Below, piece by piece: positions 15,857-47,109 of a stretch of DNA of 64,000 bases (position 1 is its first letter; the number at the start of each line of letters is the position of its first letter). The stretch is from Methanoculleus caldifontis. GTDB lineage: Archaea; Halobacteriota; Methanomicrobia; Methanomicrobiales; Methanoculleaceae. Made by a program: the position numbers and the translations under genes. The stretch lies in contig NZ_WBKO01000001.1 of the NCBI RefSeq assembly GCF_032842345.1, positions 496,001-560,000 on the forward strand. Reading direction: 5' to 3'. The notes under the pieces are model-generated. The model made no database searches and was not told where the DNA came from. It was given only the letters and a program-made list of their open reading frames with translations.

Positions 15857-17734
15857 TCAGGCGGCCTTCCGGAGCGTGAGCCTGATGGCCGCCCCGCATT
15901 CCGGCCGGCCTTCCACCCGATCCTCTGCCCGGATCGTCCCGCCGTATCGCGTGACAAGCATCCGACAGATGTAGAGGCCAAGACCCCGGCCGCTTTTTTC
16001 GCTCTCGCCCCCGCTGAAACGGTTGAAGAGGCTCCGCTTCCGCTCGTCGGGGATGCCGGGCCCGGTATCCTCGACCGAGACCAGGACGAACTCGCCCTCG
16101 TCCTCCACCCCGACGGCGATCTCGACTGCAGGGCCGCCGAACTTCGCCGCGTTCCCGATCAGGTTCGTGAAGATCTCAAAGATGAGATCGTCAGCAAGGA
16201 CAACTGCCGTGCTGCCCGGATACGTGATCTTCACGTCAGAGTGGTGCCCGATCTCCGACCGGATGACGGGGTCGAGCGCGATAGGTCGAAGGACCGCGGT
16301 TTCTTCCCGGATCTGCCTGATGGTGTTGACGTTCCTGATGATCTCCGTGCTCTTTCCAAGACTCCTCTGTATCTTCTCGGTATAATTCCGCGGCTCCCCC
16401 TCGAGCTCTTCGAGGAGGAGATCCGCATAAAGGCTCGCGGTGTTGGTGGCGTTCTTGATATCGTGCGTCATGATATCCAGGTACAGGTTCGCCTTCTCCG
16501 TCGACTCCTGCAACTCCGCCGTCCGCTCCTCGACCTGCTCCTCCAGGTTCTCGCTGTACTCCCGGATCGTCTCCTCCGAGTCCTGGAGGCGCCGTATGCC
16601 CGCTTTCAGGCTCGCGACCATCGTGTTGATGCTCCGCTCGAGCCTCATTACCTCGCGGGTCGCCGAGGTCCGGACGGTGTGATCGAGGTCTCCCTGCGCG
16701 ATGACGTCGACGTCATCGATGATCTCTTCAATCGGGCGCGTGAGGCGGCGGGCTACGAGGAAGATGATCCCGCTGCAGAGAACTATCGCGAGGGTTGCAA
16801 CGGCAGCGCGGTAGTAGAGCATCTGGTCGAGCTGGCTCTGGATGAGTGCGGTGTTGTACGTCAGCTCGACGACGACGCTCGGATCCGAGGGGTAATCCGG
16901 ATCTTTCAGATCGATGAAGAGGTACCGGACCTGCCTTCCGCGATCATCCCGCATCTCGTAATCCGCTCTCCCGGGGATGACGGTCCCGGTGACGAGTGCC
17001 CGGTTTTCGGCGTCGGGGGGCTCACCGGTCTCTCCGACAGGGTTCCCGAAGGTGTCGTAGACGCGGATCGACTCGAGATACGGGTTTAAGGCGACGAACT
17101 CCTGCGTGCTCTGCTGTGAGCGCAACCGGTTCCGTTCCTCCACGAACGCACCCGGCACGAGCCCGATCTCGAGAAGGTACCGGTGGTCCGGCGTCGGCAT
17201 ATAGGCATACTTCCGGACCTGCCCGGTTGCGCGCTCGTATACCACGCGATCGGGGAAGAATTCGTCTCCGAGACGCATCCGGGTGATCTCCGCATAGAAC
17301 TCCGGCATCTCTCTGAAGTCAAGGCCCTGGTCGGGAGGATAGGTGGTGTACTCGACGACCCCAGATTGGTTGATGACGTAGAGATCCATATCGCCCCCGA
17401 GCTCTCTTTTGATTGCGAAGAGATCCATCTGGGACGGGTCCCCTCCCGCCCGCTCATACTCTTCAAGAAAGAGCGTAAGCCCTCTTTGCAACCGGAGATT
17501 GAGCGAATCGTCGAAGAGCTTGAGCCCGGCATCCGTATCCGTGATCGATTCGCGGATGCTCTTCTCGGTGACGCTCTGCAGGGTGGCGAGGTCCGAGGTC
17601 ATCCTCGCTTCGGCCTGCACGTAGTCATAGACAGAGAGGAAGCCGATAGCGGGGATGACGATGAGAAGGATGGCTATAATAAGGGTGGACGCGAACGGTC
17701 GGGTCCCGGGAACAGGTGCGCGAGCGCTCGTCAT
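15857..17734 (-). CDS. Membrane sensor histidine kinase (Cache-HAMP), paralogue 1
   Basis: 625 residues. A first membrane helix (about 19-41), an extracellular Cache-type sensor (about 45-315), a second helix (about 318-340), a HAMP domain, a coiled coil, and the kinase core. The H box reads LYLDIMTHDIKNATN; the ATP-binding domain has NLIGNAAKFGG, DTGPGIP and GLGLYICRMLV. It probably binds a small extracellular ligand and autophosphorylates in the cytoplasm. It is closely related along its full length to the next two kinase genes, which points to local duplication. No response regulator is nearby. Confidence 0.9.
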   Translation of the reverse strand: MTSARAPVPGTRPFASTLIIAILLIVIPAIGFLSVYDYVQAEARMTSDLATLQSVTEKSIRESITDTDAGLKLFDDSLNLRLQRGLTLFLEEYERAGGDPSQMDLFAIKRELGGDMDLYVINQSGVVEYTTYPPDQGLDFREMPEFYAEITRMRLGDEFFPDRVVYERATGQVRKYAYMPTPDHRYLLEIGLVPGAFVEERNRLRSQQSTQEFVALNPYLESIRVYDTFGNPVGETGEPPDAENRALVTGTVIPGRADYEMRDDRGRQVRYLFIDLKDPDYPSDPSVVVELTYNTALIQSQLDQMLYYRAAVATLAIVLCSGIIFLVARRLTRPIEEIIDDVDVIAQGDLDHTVRTSATREVMRLERSINTMVASLKAGIRRLQDSEETIREYSENLEEQVEERTAELQESTEKANLYLDIMTHDIKNATNTASLYADLLLEELEGEPRNYTEKIQRSLGKSTEIIRNVNTIRQIREETAVLRPIALDPVIRSEIGHHSDVKITYPGSTAVVLADDLIFEIFTNLIGNAAKFGGPAVEIAVGVEDEGEFVLVSVEDTGPGIPDERKRSLFNRFSGGESEKSGRGLGLYICRMLVTRYGGTIRAEDRVEGRPECGAAIRLTLRKAA

Positions 17735-17937
17735 AGACCTCCATCGTGCGAGAGGGCGAGGCGCGGAGGCGGGGCGTCGGTACGCAGCCCCCGGCCGGAC
17801 CGGCCGGGCAGGATCGCGCTCACCCGCGAGAGCAAGGTCTCCATCTTAGCAACCGCATATGGGGTCATCCCACCTAAACCTTCGCGCGGAAAAGGATCCG
17901 GGATCGTGGGGTAATGACAGGATAATCCGGGTGCCTG

Positions 17938-19824
17938 CTACTCCTCCGGGACCTTCCGGAGCGTGAACCGGATGGCTGCACCCAGGTCCGGCCGGCCCTC
18001 CACCCGGTCCTCCACCCAGATCCTTCCGCCGTAGCGCTCGACAAGCATCCGGCAGATGTAGAGGCCGAGGCCTGCGCCGGCGAGCGACCCCTCCCCCTTC
18101 CCGAACCGGCGGAACGCGCCGCTCTTGACCGCGTCGGGGATCCCCGGCCCGGTATCCTCGACCGAGACCACGATCTCCTCGCCCCGCTCCTCGACCCGGA
18201 TGGCGACCTCGACCCCCGGCCCCCCGAACTTGACGGCGTTCCCGATGAGGTTCGCGAAGACCTCGGCAATCAGCCCGTCGGCGAGGACCGTGGCCGGCCG
18301 GCCCTCGTACCGGATCGTGGGGTGATCCGCCGCCTGCGTCCGGATCACCCGATCGAGGTCCACCCGCGTCAGTGCCTCCCCGCTCTCACGGACCTTCCGC
18401 AGCGTGGCGACGCAGCCGATGATCCCCGAACTCTGGTCCAGCCGCGAGAGCATCTTCTCGGCCATCTCCCGCCGCTCGCCCTCGAGTGTCTCGATGAGCA
18501 GCCGCGTATACCCGATGGCGATGGTGTTCGCGTTGTTGATGTCATGGACCATGATATCGAGGAAGAGTGCGGCCGCGCGGTTCGACTCCTCCAGGTCGGC
18601 CGTCCGCTCCCGGACCTGGTCCTCGAGCAGGGTGCTGTACTGCCGGGAGGTCTCCTCCGACTCCCGGAGACGCCTGATATTCTCTTTGAGGGAGTCGACC
18701 ATGGCCCCGATGCTGCTCTCCAGACGGGCGAACTCGGTCCCCGTGGATATGCGGATCCGATGATCGAGGTCCCCGCGGGCGATCTGGTTGACGTCGTCGA
18801 CGATCTCCCGCACCGGCCGGGTGATCCGCCGCGAGACCGGGACCGCGATGCAGCAGGCGATCAGGCTCGAGAGGAGGACGACGAAGGCATGGCCAAAGCG
18901 CATCTCCGCGAGCCGGGCGTCGAGGGGAGCGGTGGTATAGGTCAGCTCGACGACCCGGCTCGTGTCGGAGGGATACCGGGGATCGGAGAGATCGACAAAG
19001 ATGTATCGGGTGATCGTCCCGGCAGCCGGATCCGCCAGCGTCCTCCCCTCCTTCCTCTCAAAGACCTCCAGGGCGACCGGGTTTAAGGCTGCAGGCCCGA
19101 CAGGATCTTCCGAATCCGTCACGTTGATGACCCTCCCGTAGCAGTCGAAGATCCGGATCCCCGCAAGTGCCGGGTTCAACTGCATGAGATCCTCCTTTAA
19201 GGCCTGGTACCGGGGGTCGTGACGGTCGGGGTCGGCCACGCTGCAGACGAGGCCGAGCTCAAAGAGGTAGCGATGGTCGGGGGAGGGCATGTATGCGTAC
19301 TTCCGTAACACCCCCCCCGCCGGCTCCGTCACGACGCGATCCGTCTCGAAAGCATCGCCGAGCCGGAGAGCCGTGATCCGGTCGTAGAAGTAGGGGATCT
19401 GCCGGAAATCGAGACCGAGATCGGGAGAGTAGGTGGTATACTCGATGACGCCCGACGCGTTGATGACGTAGATATCCATCTCCCCACCGATCTCCTTCTG
19501 GACGCGGGAGAGGTCCATGGCACCCGGATCCCTGCCTGCCCGTTCGTACTCGGCAAGGACCGGGCCGAACCCCTCCTGCATCCGGCGGTCCAGCGTGGCG
19601 TCAAGAAGCCCCAGCCCCGCATCCACAAGACGTAACGACTGAACGACGCTCTTCTCCGTCTGTTCCCGGAGCAGGTCGTTTCCGGCGATCAGCTCCGCCT
19701 CGACCTGCTGATAGTCCAGCACCGCGATGAGGCCGATCACCGGGAGCGTGATCAGGATCATGGCGAGCGCGAGATACGTGCCGAAATGCCGGGGCCCGCC
19801 CCCGCTGCTGCCCAACAGGGTCAC
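17938..19824 (-). CDS. Membrane sensor histidine kinase (Cache-HAMP), paralogue 2
   Basis: 628 residues from a GTG at 19824. The same layout as its neighbours: helix (about 14-36), Cache sensor, helix (VLLSSLIACCIAVPV), HAMP, coiled coil, H box LFLDIMVHDINNANT and HATPase with NLIGNAVKFGG and DTGPGIP. The GTG start is chosen because it overlaps the stop of the upstream kinase gene as GTGA, and GGAGGTG lies four bases before it. This coupling shows paralogues 2 and 3 are made together, so they may form mixed dimers. The ligand is unknown. Confidence 0.9.
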   Translation of the reverse strand: MTLLGSSGGGPRHFGTYLALAMILITLPVIGLIAVLDYQQVEAELIAGNDLLREQTEKSVVQSLRLVDAGLGLLDATLDRRMQEGFGPVLAEYERAGRDPGAMDLSRVQKEIGGEMDIYVINASGVIEYTTYSPDLGLDFRQIPYFYDRITALRLGDAFETDRVVTEPAGGVLRKYAYMPSPDHRYLFELGLVCSVADPDRHDPRYQALKEDLMQLNPALAGIRIFDCYGRVINVTDSEDPVGPAALNPVALEVFERKEGRTLADPAAGTITRYIFVDLSDPRYPSDTSRVVELTYTTAPLDARLAEMRFGHAFVVLLSSLIACCIAVPVSRRITRPVREIVDDVNQIARGDLDHRIRISTGTEFARLESSIGAMVDSLKENIRRLRESEETSRQYSTLLEDQVRERTADLEESNRAAALFLDIMVHDINNANTIAIGYTRLLIETLEGERREMAEKMLSRLDQSSGIIGCVATLRKVRESGEALTRVDLDRVIRTQAADHPTIRYEGRPATVLADGLIAEVFANLIGNAVKFGGPGVEVAIRVEERGEEIVVSVEDTGPGIPDAVKSGAFRRFGKGEGSLAGAGLGLYICRMLVERYGGRIWVEDRVEGRPDLGAAIRFTLRKVPEE

Positions 19825-21713
19825 CGGCCACCTCCCGCCCCGGCCTTCCGGAGCGTGAACCTGATGGCCGCCCCGCACTCCGGCCGGCCTTCCACCCGGT
19901 CCTCTGCCCATATCCTTCCGCCGTATCGTTCGACGAGCATCCGGCAGATGTAGAGGCCGAGCCCGGTCCCCGCCGCCCGGTGGGTTCCCCGGCTCAGCCG
20001 GTCGAAGAGCCGCGGCTTCACGGCATCGGGGATGCCCGGCCCGTCATCCTCAACGGAGATGACGACCTCCTCCCCGTGCTCCTCGACCCGGATGGCGATC
20101 CCGATCTCCGGGCCCCCGAACTTGACGGCGTTGCCGATGAGGTTTGCAAAGACCTCCGAGAGGAGGTCGTCGGCGAGGACGACGGCGGTGCTGCCCGTAT
20201 AGGCGATCCTCGCGCCGGGAGACTGCTCGATCTCGCGCCTGATGACCAGGTCGAGATCGACCGGACTGGGCGACAGCAGGCCCCCCTGGATGTGCTGAAT
20301 GGTGTTGACGTTCCGGACGATCTCGATGCTCTTTGCGAGCCCGATCTTTGCCTTCCGGAGCAGCTCGGCTTCGGGCTGCCCCTCGATCTCTGTAAGGAGG
20401 AGGTCGGAGTAGAGGTTTGCGACGTTGTTCGCGTTGTTGATGTCGTGCCGCATGATGTCGAGGAAGAGGGTCGCCATGCGGTTCGACTCCTCGAGATCGG
20501 CCGTCCGCTCCCGGACCTCCTCTTCGAGGGTATGGCTGCGCCGGATAATCTCCTCCTCCGACGCCCGGAGTTTCTGCATCGTCTCCTTCAGGGCTCCAAC
20601 CATCGCCGAGACGCTCTCACCGAGGCGTACGAACTCCTCGCTCCCGTCCACTCTGATGGGGTGGGAGAGGTCGCCCCGCGCGACGGCATCGACGTCCTCG
20701 ACGAGGTTGCGCACCGGCCGCGCAAGGACATGCACGGCGAAGGCGGAGAGGCAACTGATGAGAACGAATCCGACGAGGAGAACCCCGACCTGCCGGGCAA
20801 ACAGATCCGCGATCTTCTCATCTGCGGCCTTCGTGGAGTAGGTCAGCTCAACGATCATGCTCATATCCGACGCATAATCACTATCCGAGAGATCGACGAA
20901 GAGATACCGGGTCAGTTCACCCGCGGTGGCGTTCACCTCCTCAAGCGTGGTCTTCTCGCGGTACGCCTGCCGCACCAGCAAGAGTCGGTGATCGTCGTCG
21001 GGATGTGCCTTGCCGGTAACCCGGGTGCCCATACAGTCGAAGATCCGGATCTCCCGGATCCCCGGATTCAGGTTCACCAGATCCCTGACCGCGTCGCCGT
21101 ATTTCAGCGTCGTACGGTACCGCCGGAACTCTGACTCCGCAAGGCCGAGCTCGAAGAGATAGCGGTGGTCGGGTGAGGGGAGATACGCGTACTTCCGGAA
21201 CTCCCCGGTGGCGATCCCGGCAACGACCCTGTCGGCCGCGAAGGTCTCGCCGAGCCGGATCTCCGTGATGCGGTCGTAAAAGGATGGGTATTCCCTGAAG
21301 TCGCATCCCAGATCGGGGAGATAAGTGGTGTACTCGATGACGCCGCTCTCGTTGATGATATACACGTCCATCCCGCCCCCGAGCGCCTCCTTGACCCGGA
21401 GAAGGTCCATCCGGGCCGGGTCACCTCCCGTCCGCTCGTATTCGGCGAGGACGGGACCGAATGCCTCCTCCATCTCGCGGTCCAGGGTGCCGTCGAAGAG
21501 TTTCAACCCCGCATCGACGAGGCTCAGGGAGAGGATGGCACCGTATTCGGTCTGTTCACGAAATTCTTCGGCATTTGCCTCCAGCCCCTGCTGGACCCCG
21601 ATGTAGTCGATACACGAGATCAGGCAGACGACGGGGCCCATCGCGAGCACGATGGCAAGCAGGAGGTAGACCATGAACGGGAGCGAGGGCCGTGCCGCTC
21701 TCTTTGCCGCCAT
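19821..21713 (-). CDS. Membrane sensor histidine kinase (Cache-HAMP), paralogue 3
   Basis: 630 residues: first helix (about 12-36), Cache sensor (about 40-285), second helix (about 288-312), HAMP, coiled coil, H box LFLDIMRHDINNANN and a HATPase domain with DDGPGIP and GLGLYICRMLV. The sensor shares motifs with the other two, for example DLL-type and VIEYTTY segments followed by GLDFR or GCDFR, so the three probably sense related ligands. It is the first gene of the kinase operon. A TATA-like GATAAATATCC lies near 21793-21803. Confidence 0.9.
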   Translation of the reverse strand: MAAKRAARPSLPFMVYLLLAIVLAMGPVVCLISCIDYIGVQQGLEANAEEFREQTEYGAILSLSLVDAGLKLFDGTLDREMEEAFGPVLAEYERTGGDPARMDLLRVKEALGGGMDVYIINESGVIEYTTYLPDLGCDFREYPSFYDRITEIRLGETFAADRVVAGIATGEFRKYAYLPSPDHRYLFELGLAESEFRRYRTTLKYGDAVRDLVNLNPGIREIRIFDCMGTRVTGKAHPDDDHRLLLVRQAYREKTTLEEVNATAGELTRYLFVDLSDSDYASDMSMIVELTYSTKAADEKIADLFARQVGVLLVGFVLISCLSAFAVHVLARPVRNLVEDVDAVARGDLSHPIRVDGSEEFVRLGESVSAMVGALKETMQKLRASEEEIIRRSHTLEEEVRERTADLEESNRMATLFLDIMRHDINNANNVANLYSDLLLTEIEGQPEAELLRKAKIGLAKSIEIVRNVNTIQHIQGGLLSPSPVDLDLVIRREIEQSPGARIAYTGSTAVVLADDLLSEVFANLIGNAVKFGGPEIGIAIRVEEHGEEVVISVEDDGPGIPDAVKPRLFDRLSRGTHRAAGTGLGLYICRMLVERYGGRIWAEDRVEGRPECGAAIRFTLRKAGAGGGR

Positions 21714-43152: not shown

Positions 43153-43400
43153 ACAATTACCTTGCAGAGATATTGTTACAAATCTAAAGATAAATGTTAC
43201 GCCAGGGCCCCCGGAGGCCGCGGCCCGGTCCCCCGTGCATATAAGGGCCCGACCATCGCCGGCTGCGAAGCGGCATTTCTGGTGAAATATTTTTGCTGCC
43301 GGATATCTGCACGTTTCCGCTATCCAGATAGAACGGCAAATTTTTGCAGATCTCAGAGAGGTGGTTATTTATACGCCTTCGTGTCTAATGACTGCTTTAC
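43153..43400. promoter_or_regulatory. Divergent region before the pilin-like cassette
   Basis: 248 bases between the divergent FmdE-like and pilin-cassette starts. TGGTTATTTATACG (about 43361-43374) reads as a TATA box about 30 bases before the first cassette gene at 43401, which has no ribosome binding site. Confidence 0.4.
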
Positions 43401-43967
43401 ATGAGAGCCCCCGGGGGAGTCCTGGCCCTTCTTGTCGCAGCCTTCGTCTTCTGTACCACCTGTGGTTGTCTCGGTGCATCCACGTCACCGACCGGCGGCG
43501 GCATCACCCCCGTCGATCTGCCGGAACCGCCGGGGTCATCGACCTTCGCCGAGGCTCTTGCGGAACTCGATCTGCTCGGCGCCGAAGGCAACCTCAACGT
43601 CACCGGAACCACGGTGCATCAGGTGCTCGGGACCGGCGTGGACCTCGACGGCCGGGCAACCTCCTGGGCCCTCGGCCTCCGGGACGGGGACGGGGGCGTC
43701 CGCTGGCTGACCTTCGGCAGGACGGGCTGGAAGGAGATCTCGCTCAGGGCCCCCGTGCCCGCGGAGGAGGTGGTCCTCGCCGACGCCCTCTCTCCCGCGG
43801 ATCTCTTCGGCGGGCAGGGTGAGACGATCTCGGCGGCAATGACCCGGCTCGGTGCCGACACGGTCGACCTCGCGCTCGCCGAGGGGGCCTACGTCGTGAC
43901 CGTCAGGACAGACGCCGGGATGGAGACCTTCGTGTTCCGGGCCGATACCGGGGAGGCGATCGTATGA
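43401..43967 (+). CDS. Secreted lipoprotein-like protein, first gene of the pilin-like cassette
   Basis: 188 residues. A hydrophobic N-terminus (GVLALLVAAFVFCTTCGC) ends in a lipobox-like CGC, followed by a P/G/T-rich linker. The rest is predicted to be exposed; no family was recognised. The stop overlaps the next start by four bases. It may anchor the products of the genes behind it. Confidence 0.65.
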   Translation: MRAPGGVLALLVAAFVFCTTCGCLGASTSPTGGGITPVDLPEPPGSSTFAEALAELDLLGAEGNLNVTGTTVHQVLGTGVDLDGRATSWALGLRDGDGGVRWLTFGRTGWKEISLRAPVPAEEVVLADALSPADLFGGQGETISAAMTRLGADTVDLALAEGAYVVTVRTDAGMETFVFRADTGEAIV

Positions 43968-45022
43968 GACCTGAGTCCGAAGACGGCGTGATGTCGCTCG
44001 ACTTCCTCGCGGGGTTCACGATCTTCATGCTCGCCCTGATCATGGTCGTGAGCATGGTGCCGGGGCTCCTTGCAGGCCTCGAGAGCAGCGGCATCGACTA
44101 CGATGCCGTCGCCTACCGGACAGGGGTGATCCTGGTCGAGGACCCCGGCTGGCCGGTCTATCCCCCCTGGGAGATGAACGATGCGTCCCACAAAGGCGAG
44201 ATCCAGCGGATCGGCCTTGCGGTCTCAAAGGAGACCCCGAACGTCCTCCTCTCGACGAAGGTCGATAAGCTCTTTGAGGCGGGGTTCTTCGCCCCGGAGG
44301 ACTACCGCAACAAGGCGATCTTCGGGGATATCCCTTACTCGTATAACTTCTCGCTCAATATCTCGCAGGCCGGGGGGAATTATGAGCTCAAGCAGACCGG
44401 CAGCCCTCTCCCTCCCGGCTACGGCTATATCCGCCGGGTGGTGAAGATCAAGGAGCCGGGAGTGGCGAACGTCGGATATAGCAATAGTTATACTGCAGCC
44501 GATCCTTTGAGCCCGGCCCGGACATTTACCATTCGGCTCGACTTCAACCAGCTGCTGGACCCGAAGCGGGGGCCGGCGTACCGAATCGATCCGAGAACCG
44601 AGCCGGTGACGGTGAAAATCGACCTCGACAATTACCTCGTCTCTCCTCACGCTGAAGCAACGCTCCAGAACGTGACGTTCTGGAAGATGGACCCGACGAG
44701 GCCGAATCCCCGGTTCACCCGGATCCCGTTCTCGTATAACGATATGGACTCGAATCTCTACACCCTCACCCTCAACAGTGGCCCAAGCAACCTCGTGCCG
44801 GCCCAACCGGTCAGAGGGAGCATCGCCCTTGAATTGCAGCCGGCCGCCACCTCGCAGTTCACCCTGGACCAGAACAGCATCCTGGATATCCGGTTCGCCT
44901 TTCAAGAAGCTGCAGAGGATGAGCCGCAGCACACCAGCATCAACGGCACCTACCTCTACGACTACGGTAACGTGGACCTTCCTCCCCTGAAGATCGGGGT
45001 TCTGGAGGTTGCCATATGGTGA
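43964..45022 (+). CDS. Pilin-like membrane protein, 352 residues
   Basis: A short charged leader (MRPESEDG) precedes a hydrophobic helix (VMSLDFLAGFTIFMLALIM) and a large exposed domain rich in N, Y and P. This is the layout of archaeal type IV pilin-like proteins with class III signal peptides, although the protein is longer than usual. Overlaps of 4 and 7 bases join it to its neighbours. Related proteins exist in haloarchaea and methanogens as unnamed DUF families; function is unknown. Confidence 0.65.
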   Translation: MRPESEDGVMSLDFLAGFTIFMLALIMVVSMVPGLLAGLESSGIDYDAVAYRTGVILVEDPGWPVYPPWEMNDASHKGEIQRIGLAVSKETPNVLLSTKVDKLFEAGFFAPEDYRNKAIFGDIPYSYNFSLNISQAGGNYELKQTGSPLPPGYGYIRRVVKIKEPGVANVGYSNSYTAADPLSPARTFTIRLDFNQLLDPKRGPAYRIDPRTEPVTVKIDLDNYLVSPHAEATLQNVTFWKMDPTRPNPRFTRIPFSYNDMDSNLYTLTLNSGPSNLVPAQPVRGSIALELQPAATSQFTLDQNSILDIRFAFQEAAEDEPQHTSINGTYLYDYGNVDLPPLKIGVLEVAIW

Positions 45023-45534
45023 ACGATAGAGGACAGATCTACACGATGGAGGGCGTCGCAGCCGGGCTCATCATGCTCCTCACCGCGTATATCGTCATCA
45101 GCACGACGAGCATCTACACGCCTGGCGATACGCACATCCCGGACATGCAGCTTGAGCAGCTCGGGAGCGACGTCCTCGCGATGATGGATACGCCGGATAC
45201 TAACGGGGGTGAGAGCAGGCTGATCGAGCTCGTCAGAGGTGGGACCGGGACCGGTGACGCGCTCCGAGATGAGTTCCTCGCCGGCTGCAAGATGCGATCC
45301 GGGGGTCCGGACGACGACCTCCGGGCCCAGGTCTACCTCTCCTACAGGACTTCGGGTGGCAGCGTGAAGATGATCCCGCTCTCCTCGACGGATCCGGAGT
45401 TTACGGGGCGGGAGAACACCGTGCGGGTGACCCGGTGGGTGCAATTGCAGACAAGACCTACGACAGGTATGCCAGGCGATATGGCTCTCCGCCCCCAGGC
45501 CGTCCTCGTGGAGGTGCTCTTATGGCGTGCATGA
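45016..45534 (+). CDS. Pilin-like membrane protein, 172 residues (DUF7288-like)
   Basis: MVNDRGQIYTMEGVAAGLIMLL shows a charged leader, a Gly-Gln processing-like junction and a helix with glutamate early in it, as in class III signal peptides. The rest is soluble and predicted exposed. I relate it to the DUF7288-type proteins by pattern; this needs a profile search. It overlaps both neighbours. Confidence 0.6.
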   Translation: MVNDRGQIYTMEGVAAGLIMLLTAYIVISTTSIYTPGDTHIPDMQLEQLGSDVLAMMDTPDTNGGESRLIELVRGGTGTGDALRDEFLAGCKMRSGGPDDDLRAQVYLSYRTSGGSVKMIPLSSTDPEFTGRENTVRVTRWVQLQTRPTTGMPGDMALRPQAVLVEVLLWRA

Positions 45535-45905
45535 ACGAAGAAGGGCAGTGGATCGTCCTGATGGGCCTCCTCGTCGCCGTGGGGCTGTTCTTCCTCGCGC
45601 TGATCATCAACCAGTCGGCGCTTGTCGGGCAGACGACCGCGGAGGGGGTGCTCGAGTTCCCGAAGAACGACATCCGGGACCTGCGGTCGGCGATCTTCGA
45701 CTACACCAAGGGATTCGGCAATGTCGATAACATCAGTAGCAGATCCGTTCAAGATGACATCACCATGATCTCTCTCGAACGGAAGAACGCCGTGGTGAGT
45801 TTCACGGTCGGAGAGAAGATGGACGTCTCCGGGCGCTGGCTCCACCCGGTCCAGATCCACTACAACAACGGGGTGACGGAGTACGATGAGACCGCGTATC
45901 ACTGA
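45522..45905 (+). CDS. Pilin-like membrane protein, 127 residues
   Basis: MACMNEEGQWIVLMGLLVAV shows the same EEG-Q leader and helix as the other cassette genes. The start could be the ATG at 45522 or 45531. The exposed part is short. Its 5' end overlaps the previous gene by 13 bases. Confidence 0.6.
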   Translation: MACMNEEGQWIVLMGLLVAVGLFFLALIINQSALVGQTTAEGVLEFPKNDIRDLRSAIFDYTKGFGNVDNISSRSVQDDITMISLERKNAVVSFTVGEKMDVSGRWLHPVQIHYNNGVTEYDETAYH

Positions 45906-46332
45906 ACCGATGAACGAGGAGGGCGTCACCCGACTCATGGAGTACATCATCATCACCGGCGTGCTGCTCGTGCTGATGATCGTGATGATGTTCACCGTCA
46001 ACGCCGTCCTCATGGAAGGGCCGGCGGACAAGCTCCGCTACCACGCTTTCGTGGACATCGGGAACGGGGTCAGCACCCGGATCGTCGACCTCTATGTCAT
46101 CGCGCCCGGCAACGGGACCATCGCGACGAAGTTCGACATCCCCGACGAGGTTGCCGGAAGGGACTACTTTGTGGACGTGGGGATGGCGGGTGCGAGCCAG
46201 GCGATCCGGGTGCAGGGTGGCAACATCCAGAGCAGCGTCGCCATCGGCGGCATCGGGGCGACGCGGGGCGTCGTCGGCAACACCACCGGCGCGGGATGGA
46301 ACATGATTCAGTACGATTCCAAGGGATTTTAG
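45886..46332 (+). CDS. Pilin-like membrane protein, 148 residues
   Basis: The helix EYIIITGVLLVLMIVMMFTV follows a short acidic leader MNEEGVTRL, the same pattern as its neighbours. The start is either 45886, overlapping the previous gene by 20 bases, or the ATG at 45910, which gives the shorter leader shared by the cassette. A glycine-rich exposed segment is seen near the C-terminus. Confidence 0.6.
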   Translation: MRPRITEPMNEEGVTRLMEYIIITGVLLVLMIVMMFTVNAVLMEGPADKLRYHAFVDIGNGVSTRIVDLYVIAPGNGTIATKFDIPDEVAGRDYFVDVGMAGASQAIRVQGGNIQSSVAIGGIGATRGVVGNTTGAGWNMIQYDSKGF

Positions 46333-46347
46333 GGGAGAGAGATATCC

Positions 46348-47109
46348 GTGATGATGAATGAGAAGGCGGTCTCCGAGGCGATCGGGTTTGTCCTGATCCT
46401 CGGGATCGTCATCAGCGGCATCGGCCTCGTTACGCTCTACGGCTACCCGGTGCTCGTCAAGGAGCAGAGCAACACCGACGTGAAGAACATGGAGCGGGCG
46501 ATGATCGTCATCCAGAACGACATGAAGAGCCTCTGCTTCAAGAATGTCCCCTACAAGGAGACGTCGCTCCAGGTGAGCGGGGGGACGCTCGAGGTGATCG
46601 ATGCCGGCAGCTCAGCACCAACATTCGAGATCTCTTGTGACGGTTTCGGACCGGTTGAGTTCCACCCCGGCGGACTGGTCTACCGGTCCGACCGTGGCAC
46701 CGAAGTGATCACACTCGAGAACGGTGCGGTGATGAAGCGTCAGGAGGACTCGACGGGTTCGGTGATGCTTGCCGAGCCGCGGTGGTTCTACGATGTCAAT
46801 CCGGTGACGGGCGAAAAGACGTTTGTCATCTATATCATGAACATCAGCACCGACGAGACAACGGCAAAATCCGGGATGGCTACAGTGAGGATGAGCCTGG
46901 AAGGTACAATCCCACATATGCCTCCAGGTGACGCCGTCGACGTCATGGTGCGGTATACCGGGGACACCGAAAACGATCTTACCACAGCATGGGAGAACTA
47001 CCTGACGGGCGGTTCGCCGGGTATGAGTGGATCGGGCGGCATCTACACCCTGGCGGGGGTAAAGAAGCTCATCGTCAAAGAGTACAGGATCAAGATCCAC
47101 GGGGTCTAG
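46348..47109 (+). CDS. Archaeal type IV pilin-like protein, 253 residues (DUF7289-like)
   Basis: MMMNEKAVSEAIGFVLILGI is very close to the N-terminus of archaeal type IV pilins (KAVSPVIGxILMV in haloarchaea). A short charged leader is followed by a single hydrophobic helix and a large exposed domain ending in a glycine/serine stretch and a basic tail. GAGAGAGA-like purines precede the ATG. It is the last gene of the cassette. Confidence 0.7.
   Translation: MMMNEKAVSEAIGFVLILGIVISGIGLVTLYGYPVLVKEQSNTDVKNMERAMIVIQNDMKSLCFKNVPYKETSLQVSGGTLEVIDAGSSAPTFEISCDGFGPVEFHPGGLVYRSDRGTEVITLENGAVMKRQEDSTGSVMLAEPRWFYDVNPVTGEKTFVIYIMNISTDETTAKSGMATVRMSLEGTIPHMPPGDAVDVMVRYTGDTENDLTTAWENYLTGGSPGMSGSGGIYTLAGVKKLIVKEYRIKIHGV

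Follow-up and report, generated by a model that had tools for sequence, protein, structure and literature searches.

An orphan operon of pilin-like proteins in Methanomicrobiales and its probable assembly in trans by an unlinked motor

We investigated a 64 kb stretch of the Methanoculleus caldifontis genome (C1:496001-560000, hereafter the window; the genome comprises 2.62 Mb in 4 contigs), which contains an operon of six genes, p1 to p6, encoding a putative lipoprotein and five pilin-like proteins. The operon probably encodes the pilins of a euryarchaeal type IV pilus that is driven in trans by motor A, one of three motors encoded elsewhere in this genome. The reading is based on the gene content, the leaders of the encoded proteins, the conservation of the operon across the order Methanomicrobiales, its co-occurrence with motor A, and the homology of its products to pilin sets that adjoin a motor elsewhere in the phylum. 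From these observations we infer that p2-p6 would be inserted in the membrane via their hydrophobic helices, that their leaders would be cut by the one prepilin peptidase detected in the genome, and that motor A would push them into a filament. Natural gene losses thus tie a block of domain families of unknown function to one of three motors in a major group of methanogens, which makes it directly testable how archaeal pilin sets and motors are paired.

Gene layout and pilin-like products

The six genes lie on the plus strand: p1 at 43401..43967 (188 amino acids), p2 at 43964..45022 (352), p3 at 45016..45534 (172), p4 at 45522..45905 (127), p5 at 45886..46332 (148) and p6 at 46348..47109 (253). 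An earlier note, made from the DNA letters, had described six genes at 43401-47109 with four overlaps of 4 to 20 bases and a 15-base gap before the last. A gene caller based on codon usage predicts the same six open reading frames, with the start of p6 at the ATG at 46351, and the junctions measure -4 (p1/p2), -7 (p2/p3), -13 (p3/p4), -20 (p4/p5) and +15 bases (p5/p6). A TATA-like element (TTATTTATA; 43365..43373, plus strand) lies shortly upstream of p1 and recurs in Methanoculleus-type relatives, at a near-constant distance from p1 in the loci that we inspected by eye. It may act as the promoter, and the operon thus seems to start at p1.

DUF7289, the family of p6, is present in 29 of 31 relatives (host genome included), and 107 of the 150 order genomes have a strong p6 orthologue. 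All six genes occur in the same order in 23 of the 28 order loci (in the other five, p1 or p3 was not called or a contig end cuts the locus), and this arrangement is conserved across six families. The overlaps are conserved as well, with -7 bases for p2/p3 in 45/47 loci, -13 for p3/p4 in 47/51, and -20 or -23 for p4/p5 in 39/52; the p1/p2 and p5/p6 junctions are variable. Because gene order and exact overlaps are conserved, we rejected chance open reading frames. No extra copy of any cassette gene was seen in the order loci examined. HisG, DUF1015 and eIF1A are the recurrent flanks; in the window, we take the flanking genes to be hisG and an FmdE-like gene on one side and an eIF1A-like gene on the other.

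The earlier note ascribed to p2-p6 a class III leader followed by one hydrophobic helix. Under a fixed rule (a charged leader with [KRDE][GA] at its end, then a hydrophobic stretch of 14 residues) all five proteins pass, compared to 2 of 59 other genes in the window; the three archaellin-like genes at the archaellum locus pass it too. The proposal hinged on orthologues keeping leader and helix, and the strict motif is present in most orthologues of p3 (50/51), p4 (46/54), p5 (46/55) and p6 (46/51). For p2 it is found in 15/47 orthologues, and many of them have no usual start codon 5' of the leader.

Within the families DUF7286 to DUF7289, to which the earlier note had pointed, three were recovered above the Pfam cut-off: DUF7287 at the N-terminus of p2 (29.5 bits), DUF7288 in p3 (37.9 bits) and DUF7289 in p6 (84.1 bits). 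DUF7286 was not found; p4 and p5 instead resemble DUF7261 and DUF7266, both below the cut-off, and all 46 members of the p5 alignment match DUF7266 (E<=0.1). An NCBIfam search of the cassette proteins returned no family. The mean column identity is 57% for p5, the highest of the three pilins aligned, 46% for p6 and 39% for p2. In public genomes, the named p5 relatives come from Methanoculleus and other Methanomicrobiales. The structure predicted for p2 by AlphaFold2 (predicted local distance difference test, pLDDT, 88.8) consists of a helix and a large beta-rich head. Foldseek found no match to this model in the PDB at E<=0.001 (best 2.6e-3, with a template modelling score, TM, of 0.15), and VIA-align reached Z 6.0 at best, for beta-sandwich domains in unrelated proteins, which is below a meaningful level. 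The model of p5 is poor (pLDDT 57.8) and confident in the helix only.

In the window, p2 starts at an ATG that overlaps the TGA of p1 (ATGA, 43964). The homologous codon is ATA in 20 of the 41 loci with p1 and p2 (L126-L172). Sixteen of these 20 are of the Methanoculleus type; here the leader, including a DDG, DDA or DEG cleavage motif, is in frame, the spacings to the internal start are 17, 20 and 23 bases, all of them frame-keeping, and a GGAGGT-like site is located 5' of the ATA. In two of the 16, a GTG within the leader could also serve as start. This suggests either that AUA is used as a start codon or that translation has shifted to the internal start, which would yield a leaderless p2.

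The product of p1 fails the class III leader rule. Its earlier description as lipoprotein-like agrees with a lipobox-type cysteine, Cys23, that is conserved in at least 90% of 35 orthologues. The gene is predicted at the same position in most order loci examined. The protein matches no Pfam or NCBIfam family, and a Pfam search over the 35 orthologues gave scattered single weak matches and no family. It may be a membrane-anchored lipoprotein that is co-produced with p2-p6, perhaps a chaperone or an anchor at the base of the filament.

Motors of the genome and their co-occurrence with the operon

Profile searches of the host genome gave four T2SSE and four T2SSF matches. None falls in the window, which bears out the earlier observation that neither an assembly ATPase nor a platform is encoded at the cassette locus. 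Motor A consists of an ATPase (C1:156528-158786) and two separate T2SSF platform genes (C1:155608-156531 and C1:154551-155606). It lies about 380 kb from the cassette and adjoins the gene of the single prepilin peptidase detected (C1:159869-160672; Peptidase_A24 match at C1:159920-160261 and an Arc_PepC_II tail), an enzyme on whose presence in the genome the earlier note had made its proposal depend. Motor B comprises an ATPase (C1:850276-851964) and, after it, a single gene that carries two T2SSF domains; it adjoins the ATP synthase operon. The archaellum ATPase is on C2, beside the three archaellin-like genes (L042). The fourth T2SSE match is a PIN-domain ATPase at C1:161726 (L040), of a sort not found in secretion contexts (PMC4858521). 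By the leader test, no pilin gene is present near motor A or motor B (L040, L041).

We did not adopt the plain label PilB3 for motor A. Its PilB3 domains score barely above the cut-off (27.1 and 30.4 versus 27), whereas PilB3_N and PilB3_C reach 71 and 98 bits in the pilin-less haloarchaea-like motor L213, with which the tree does not join motor A. The B-type motors have a fixed neighbourhood (L116-L121, and L229 of G154 from genus g14), with a KaiC-like gene on one side, in most an ATP synthase gene on the other, and no recognised pilins. A third motor class, C (L122-L125, L230), was not found in the host genome; short PilA-like pilins adjoin it.

The co-occurrence of cassette and motors was determined in the 150 genomes of the order, 108 of them at least 90% complete, using the p6 profile for the cassette (E<1e-40), the first platform protein of motor A (a strong orthologue by E-value and identity, E<1e-50 or better), the platform of motor B (E<1e-130) and ArlJ (E<1e-50). 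Among the 108 genomes, 82 have both the cassette and motor A, none has the cassette without A, 11 have A without the cassette, and 15 have neither (Fisher p 9e-12 by genome, uncorrected for kinship). For motor B the corresponding counts are 59, 23, 10 and 16, and for ArlJ 79, 3, 11 and 15. By genus (28 genera at this completeness) the counts for A are 22, 0, 3 and 3 (p 0.006, again uncorrected for kinship), and no link between cassette and motor B is seen. In the full set of 150, the cassette occurs without A in two genomes, G281 and G309, which are 56% and 82% complete.

Three genomes without A and cassette stand apart from genus g14: G214 (one contig, 99% complete) has motor B and the archaellum, G324 has B only, and G008 has the archaellum only. 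With g14 excluded, the test gives p values of 0.0025 (A), 0.04 (archaellum) and 1.0 (B). The B-type motor of g14 falls under the B threshold, though the tree places one such ATPase (L229) with B; the g14 genomes counted as lacking B may therefore be wrong, which would make the B link weaker still. Of the 23 genomes that have the cassette but not B, 16 gave matches to the B query in the two A platform genes only, so that A is the sole non-archaellum platform found there. A search of 19 genomes found PilA-like Pilin_N genes above the cut-off in 18, among them all 12 genomes of this kind that were covered; G008 has one marginal Pilin_N match (E 1.9e-4).

We rejected the possibility that the cassette is part of the archaellum: it is present in G253, G320 and G344, where ArlJ was not found, and absent from G008 and G214, which have ArlJ. 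Of these, G320, in which B was not found either, counts little, as its p6 is in two pieces and its A match is partial. The earlier suggestion that the cassette borrows a motor encoded elsewhere stands with respect to the location of the motor; however, "borrows" is probably too loose, because motor A, though unlinked, is apparently dedicated, judging from the co-occurrence.

Some observations weigh against the assignment to motor A. Among the 26 genomes at least 90% complete that lack the cassette, 11 have motor A, so either A serves other clients or the organism can do without the cassette. In at least two of the 11 the region is cut by contig ends: G022 retains the end of p6 and G162 retains p2-p4, in each case at a contig end. 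The genomes without A and cassette mostly represent a single genus, 12 of the 15 belonging to g14. Furthermore, the ATPase trees do not place A beside the motors that adjoin the cassette elsewhere.

Homologues beside motors elsewhere in the phylum

DUF7288 is found in 161 of 246 genomes of the phylum. The earlier note had asked whether relatives keep the cassette beside a motor. Within the order they do not, no PilB or PilC match being present in any of the 28 loci around DUF7289, but outside the order 12 of 35 fetched loci carry PilB within the stretch. In the haloarchaea-like locus L072, DUF7287 lies beside PilB/PilC, and in L074 PilB/PilC adjoin DUF7288, a weak DUF7261, DUF7266 and DUF7289, arranged as in p2-p6. 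All five domains are likewise in order, but with no motor, in L087, a locus from a different family, and in L086 a motor adjoins a p2-p3-p4 set. Loci of family f9 (and G235) encode a p5-like protein of about 750-960 amino acids and two p6-like genes (L089, L090, L091, L096-L099, L101-L103).

In the ATPase tree, the haloarchaea-like cassette-linked ATPases group together (100/100), those of L081, L084 and L093 group with other euryarchaeal motors (97/94), and motor A groups with the split-platform motors of family f8 (89/77). The L086 ATPase is placed with B in a smaller tree (87/81) and is unresolved in a larger one. The cognate motor could not be identified from trees of ATPases and platforms, in which A, B and the cassette-linked motors are deep lineages that are partly unresolved and include branches flagged as long. 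The cassette-linked ATPases belong to different lineages, and the pilin block therefore seems to have changed motors across the phylum. Motor exchange has been argued for archaeal pili generally (Makarova et al. 2016, PMC4858521).

Among the closest known systems is the PilB4-type pilin set of the euryarchaeal clade 2 type IV pili (PMC4858521). Homologues of p2-p6 are found in the same order beside PilB/PilC in haloarchaea-like genomes; based on their large size and on that survey, the cassette-adjacent motors of these genomes may be PilB4. The operon in the window differs: it has no adjacent motor, it begins with the additional lipoprotein gene p1, and the motor with which it co-occurs, A, is of another ATPase lineage with a split platform. 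The assembly of pilins by an unlinked motor is established for Haloferax volcanii PilB3-C3 (PMC6491452; PMC4371748). There too, a pilin-less ATPase/platform locus serves pilins in trans, PilA1-6 (PMC4858521; PMC6491452), but these are stand-alone major pilins, whereas here a conserved operon of five dissimilar pilins is concerned. On our reading, the euryarchaeal type IV pili surveyed in 2016 already include homologues of this set (PMC4858521). As far as the literature was searched, the order-wide orphan operon, the added lipoprotein and the pairing with motor A by natural losses are new, although the supplementary neighbourhood tables of that survey may hold the operon. A literature search on DUF7261, DUF7266, DUF7287, DUF7288 and DUF7289 found no paper.

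Possible role of the pilin set

If motor A drives p2-p6, the five single-copy pilins could well be minor, priming or tip subunits, with the bulk of the pilus formed by a stand-alone PilA-like pilin, and we slightly favor such a minor set over a filament of its own. The Pilin_N genes in all 12 genomes with A as the sole non-archaellum platform fit a role of p2-p6 in starting or capping PilA-like pili. A point against this role is that the PilB4-type system has its own predicted major pilin, arCOG03926 (PMC4858521).

An alternative explanation, which we consider rather unlikely, is that the cassette is self-sufficient, with p5 or p4 as the major subunit of a separate filament that is made via motor A and independently of PilA-like pilins. 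This explanation retains the assignment to motor A and competes only with the minor-subunit role. It agrees with the proposal that the PilB4-type system includes its own predicted major pilin in the associated set (PMC4858521), with the position of p5 as the best conserved of the three pilins aligned, and with the pilin set travelling as a block. However, the major pilins known from archaea are frequently encoded by stand-alone genes (PMC4858521), no cassette gene is multiplied as far as the order loci were examined, and Pilin_N is above the cut-off in each of the 12 searched genomes that yielded no non-archaellum platform but A.

It is conceivable, if doubtful, that the ordered block DUF7287-7288-7261-7266-7289 is, throughout the phylum, an exchangeable minor-pilin module for initiation or tip formation, tied in different lineages to at least two and perhaps three kinds of motor. 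In Methanomicrobiales it would cooperate in trans with motor A and its split platform to initiate pili made of stand-alone PilA-like pilins. Bacterial minor-pilin sets such as FimU-PilV-PilW-PilX and GspH-GspI-GspJ-GspK are likewise dissimilar pilin-like genes in one operon, with the major subunit encoded elsewhere. The likeness to these priming sets is one of organisation; the p2 model has no significant match in the PDB. If the block were such a module, it would correspond in archaea to the minor-pilin priming complex of bacteria, and it would explain how scattered stand-alone PilA-like genes share one start of assembly.

That the cassette is instead driven by motor B or the archaellum motor, or unspecifically by any of the three, appears improbable. 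Euryarchaeal type IV pilus ATPases can serve different pilin sets (PMC4858521), PilB3-C3 of Haloferax volcanii rescues a pilB1-C1 mutant (PMC6491452), and the motor beside the p2-p3-p4 set of L086 is B-like in the smaller tree. However, 23 of the 82 cassette genomes are without B and 3 of the 82 without ArlJ, B occurs without the cassette in G214 and G324, and the archaellum occurs without it in G008 and G214.

The earlier note had allowed for a surface filament or a pseudopilus. Five dissimilar pilin-like proteins, the large-headed p2 and a lipoprotein resemble the pseudopilin sets of type II secretion. Nevertheless, a short pseudopilus, or a membrane-bound secretion or sensor complex, seems unlikely compared to the pilus that we propose: the neighbours hisG, FmdE-like and eIF1A-like, as we take them to be, suggest no substrate, and the homologues occur in loci that the 2016 survey appears to take as pili (PMC4858521).

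Elsewhere in the window, three adjacent genes on the minus strand (15857-21713) encode proteins of about 625-630 amino acids with similar N-terminal membrane segments; they are apparently tandem paralogues.

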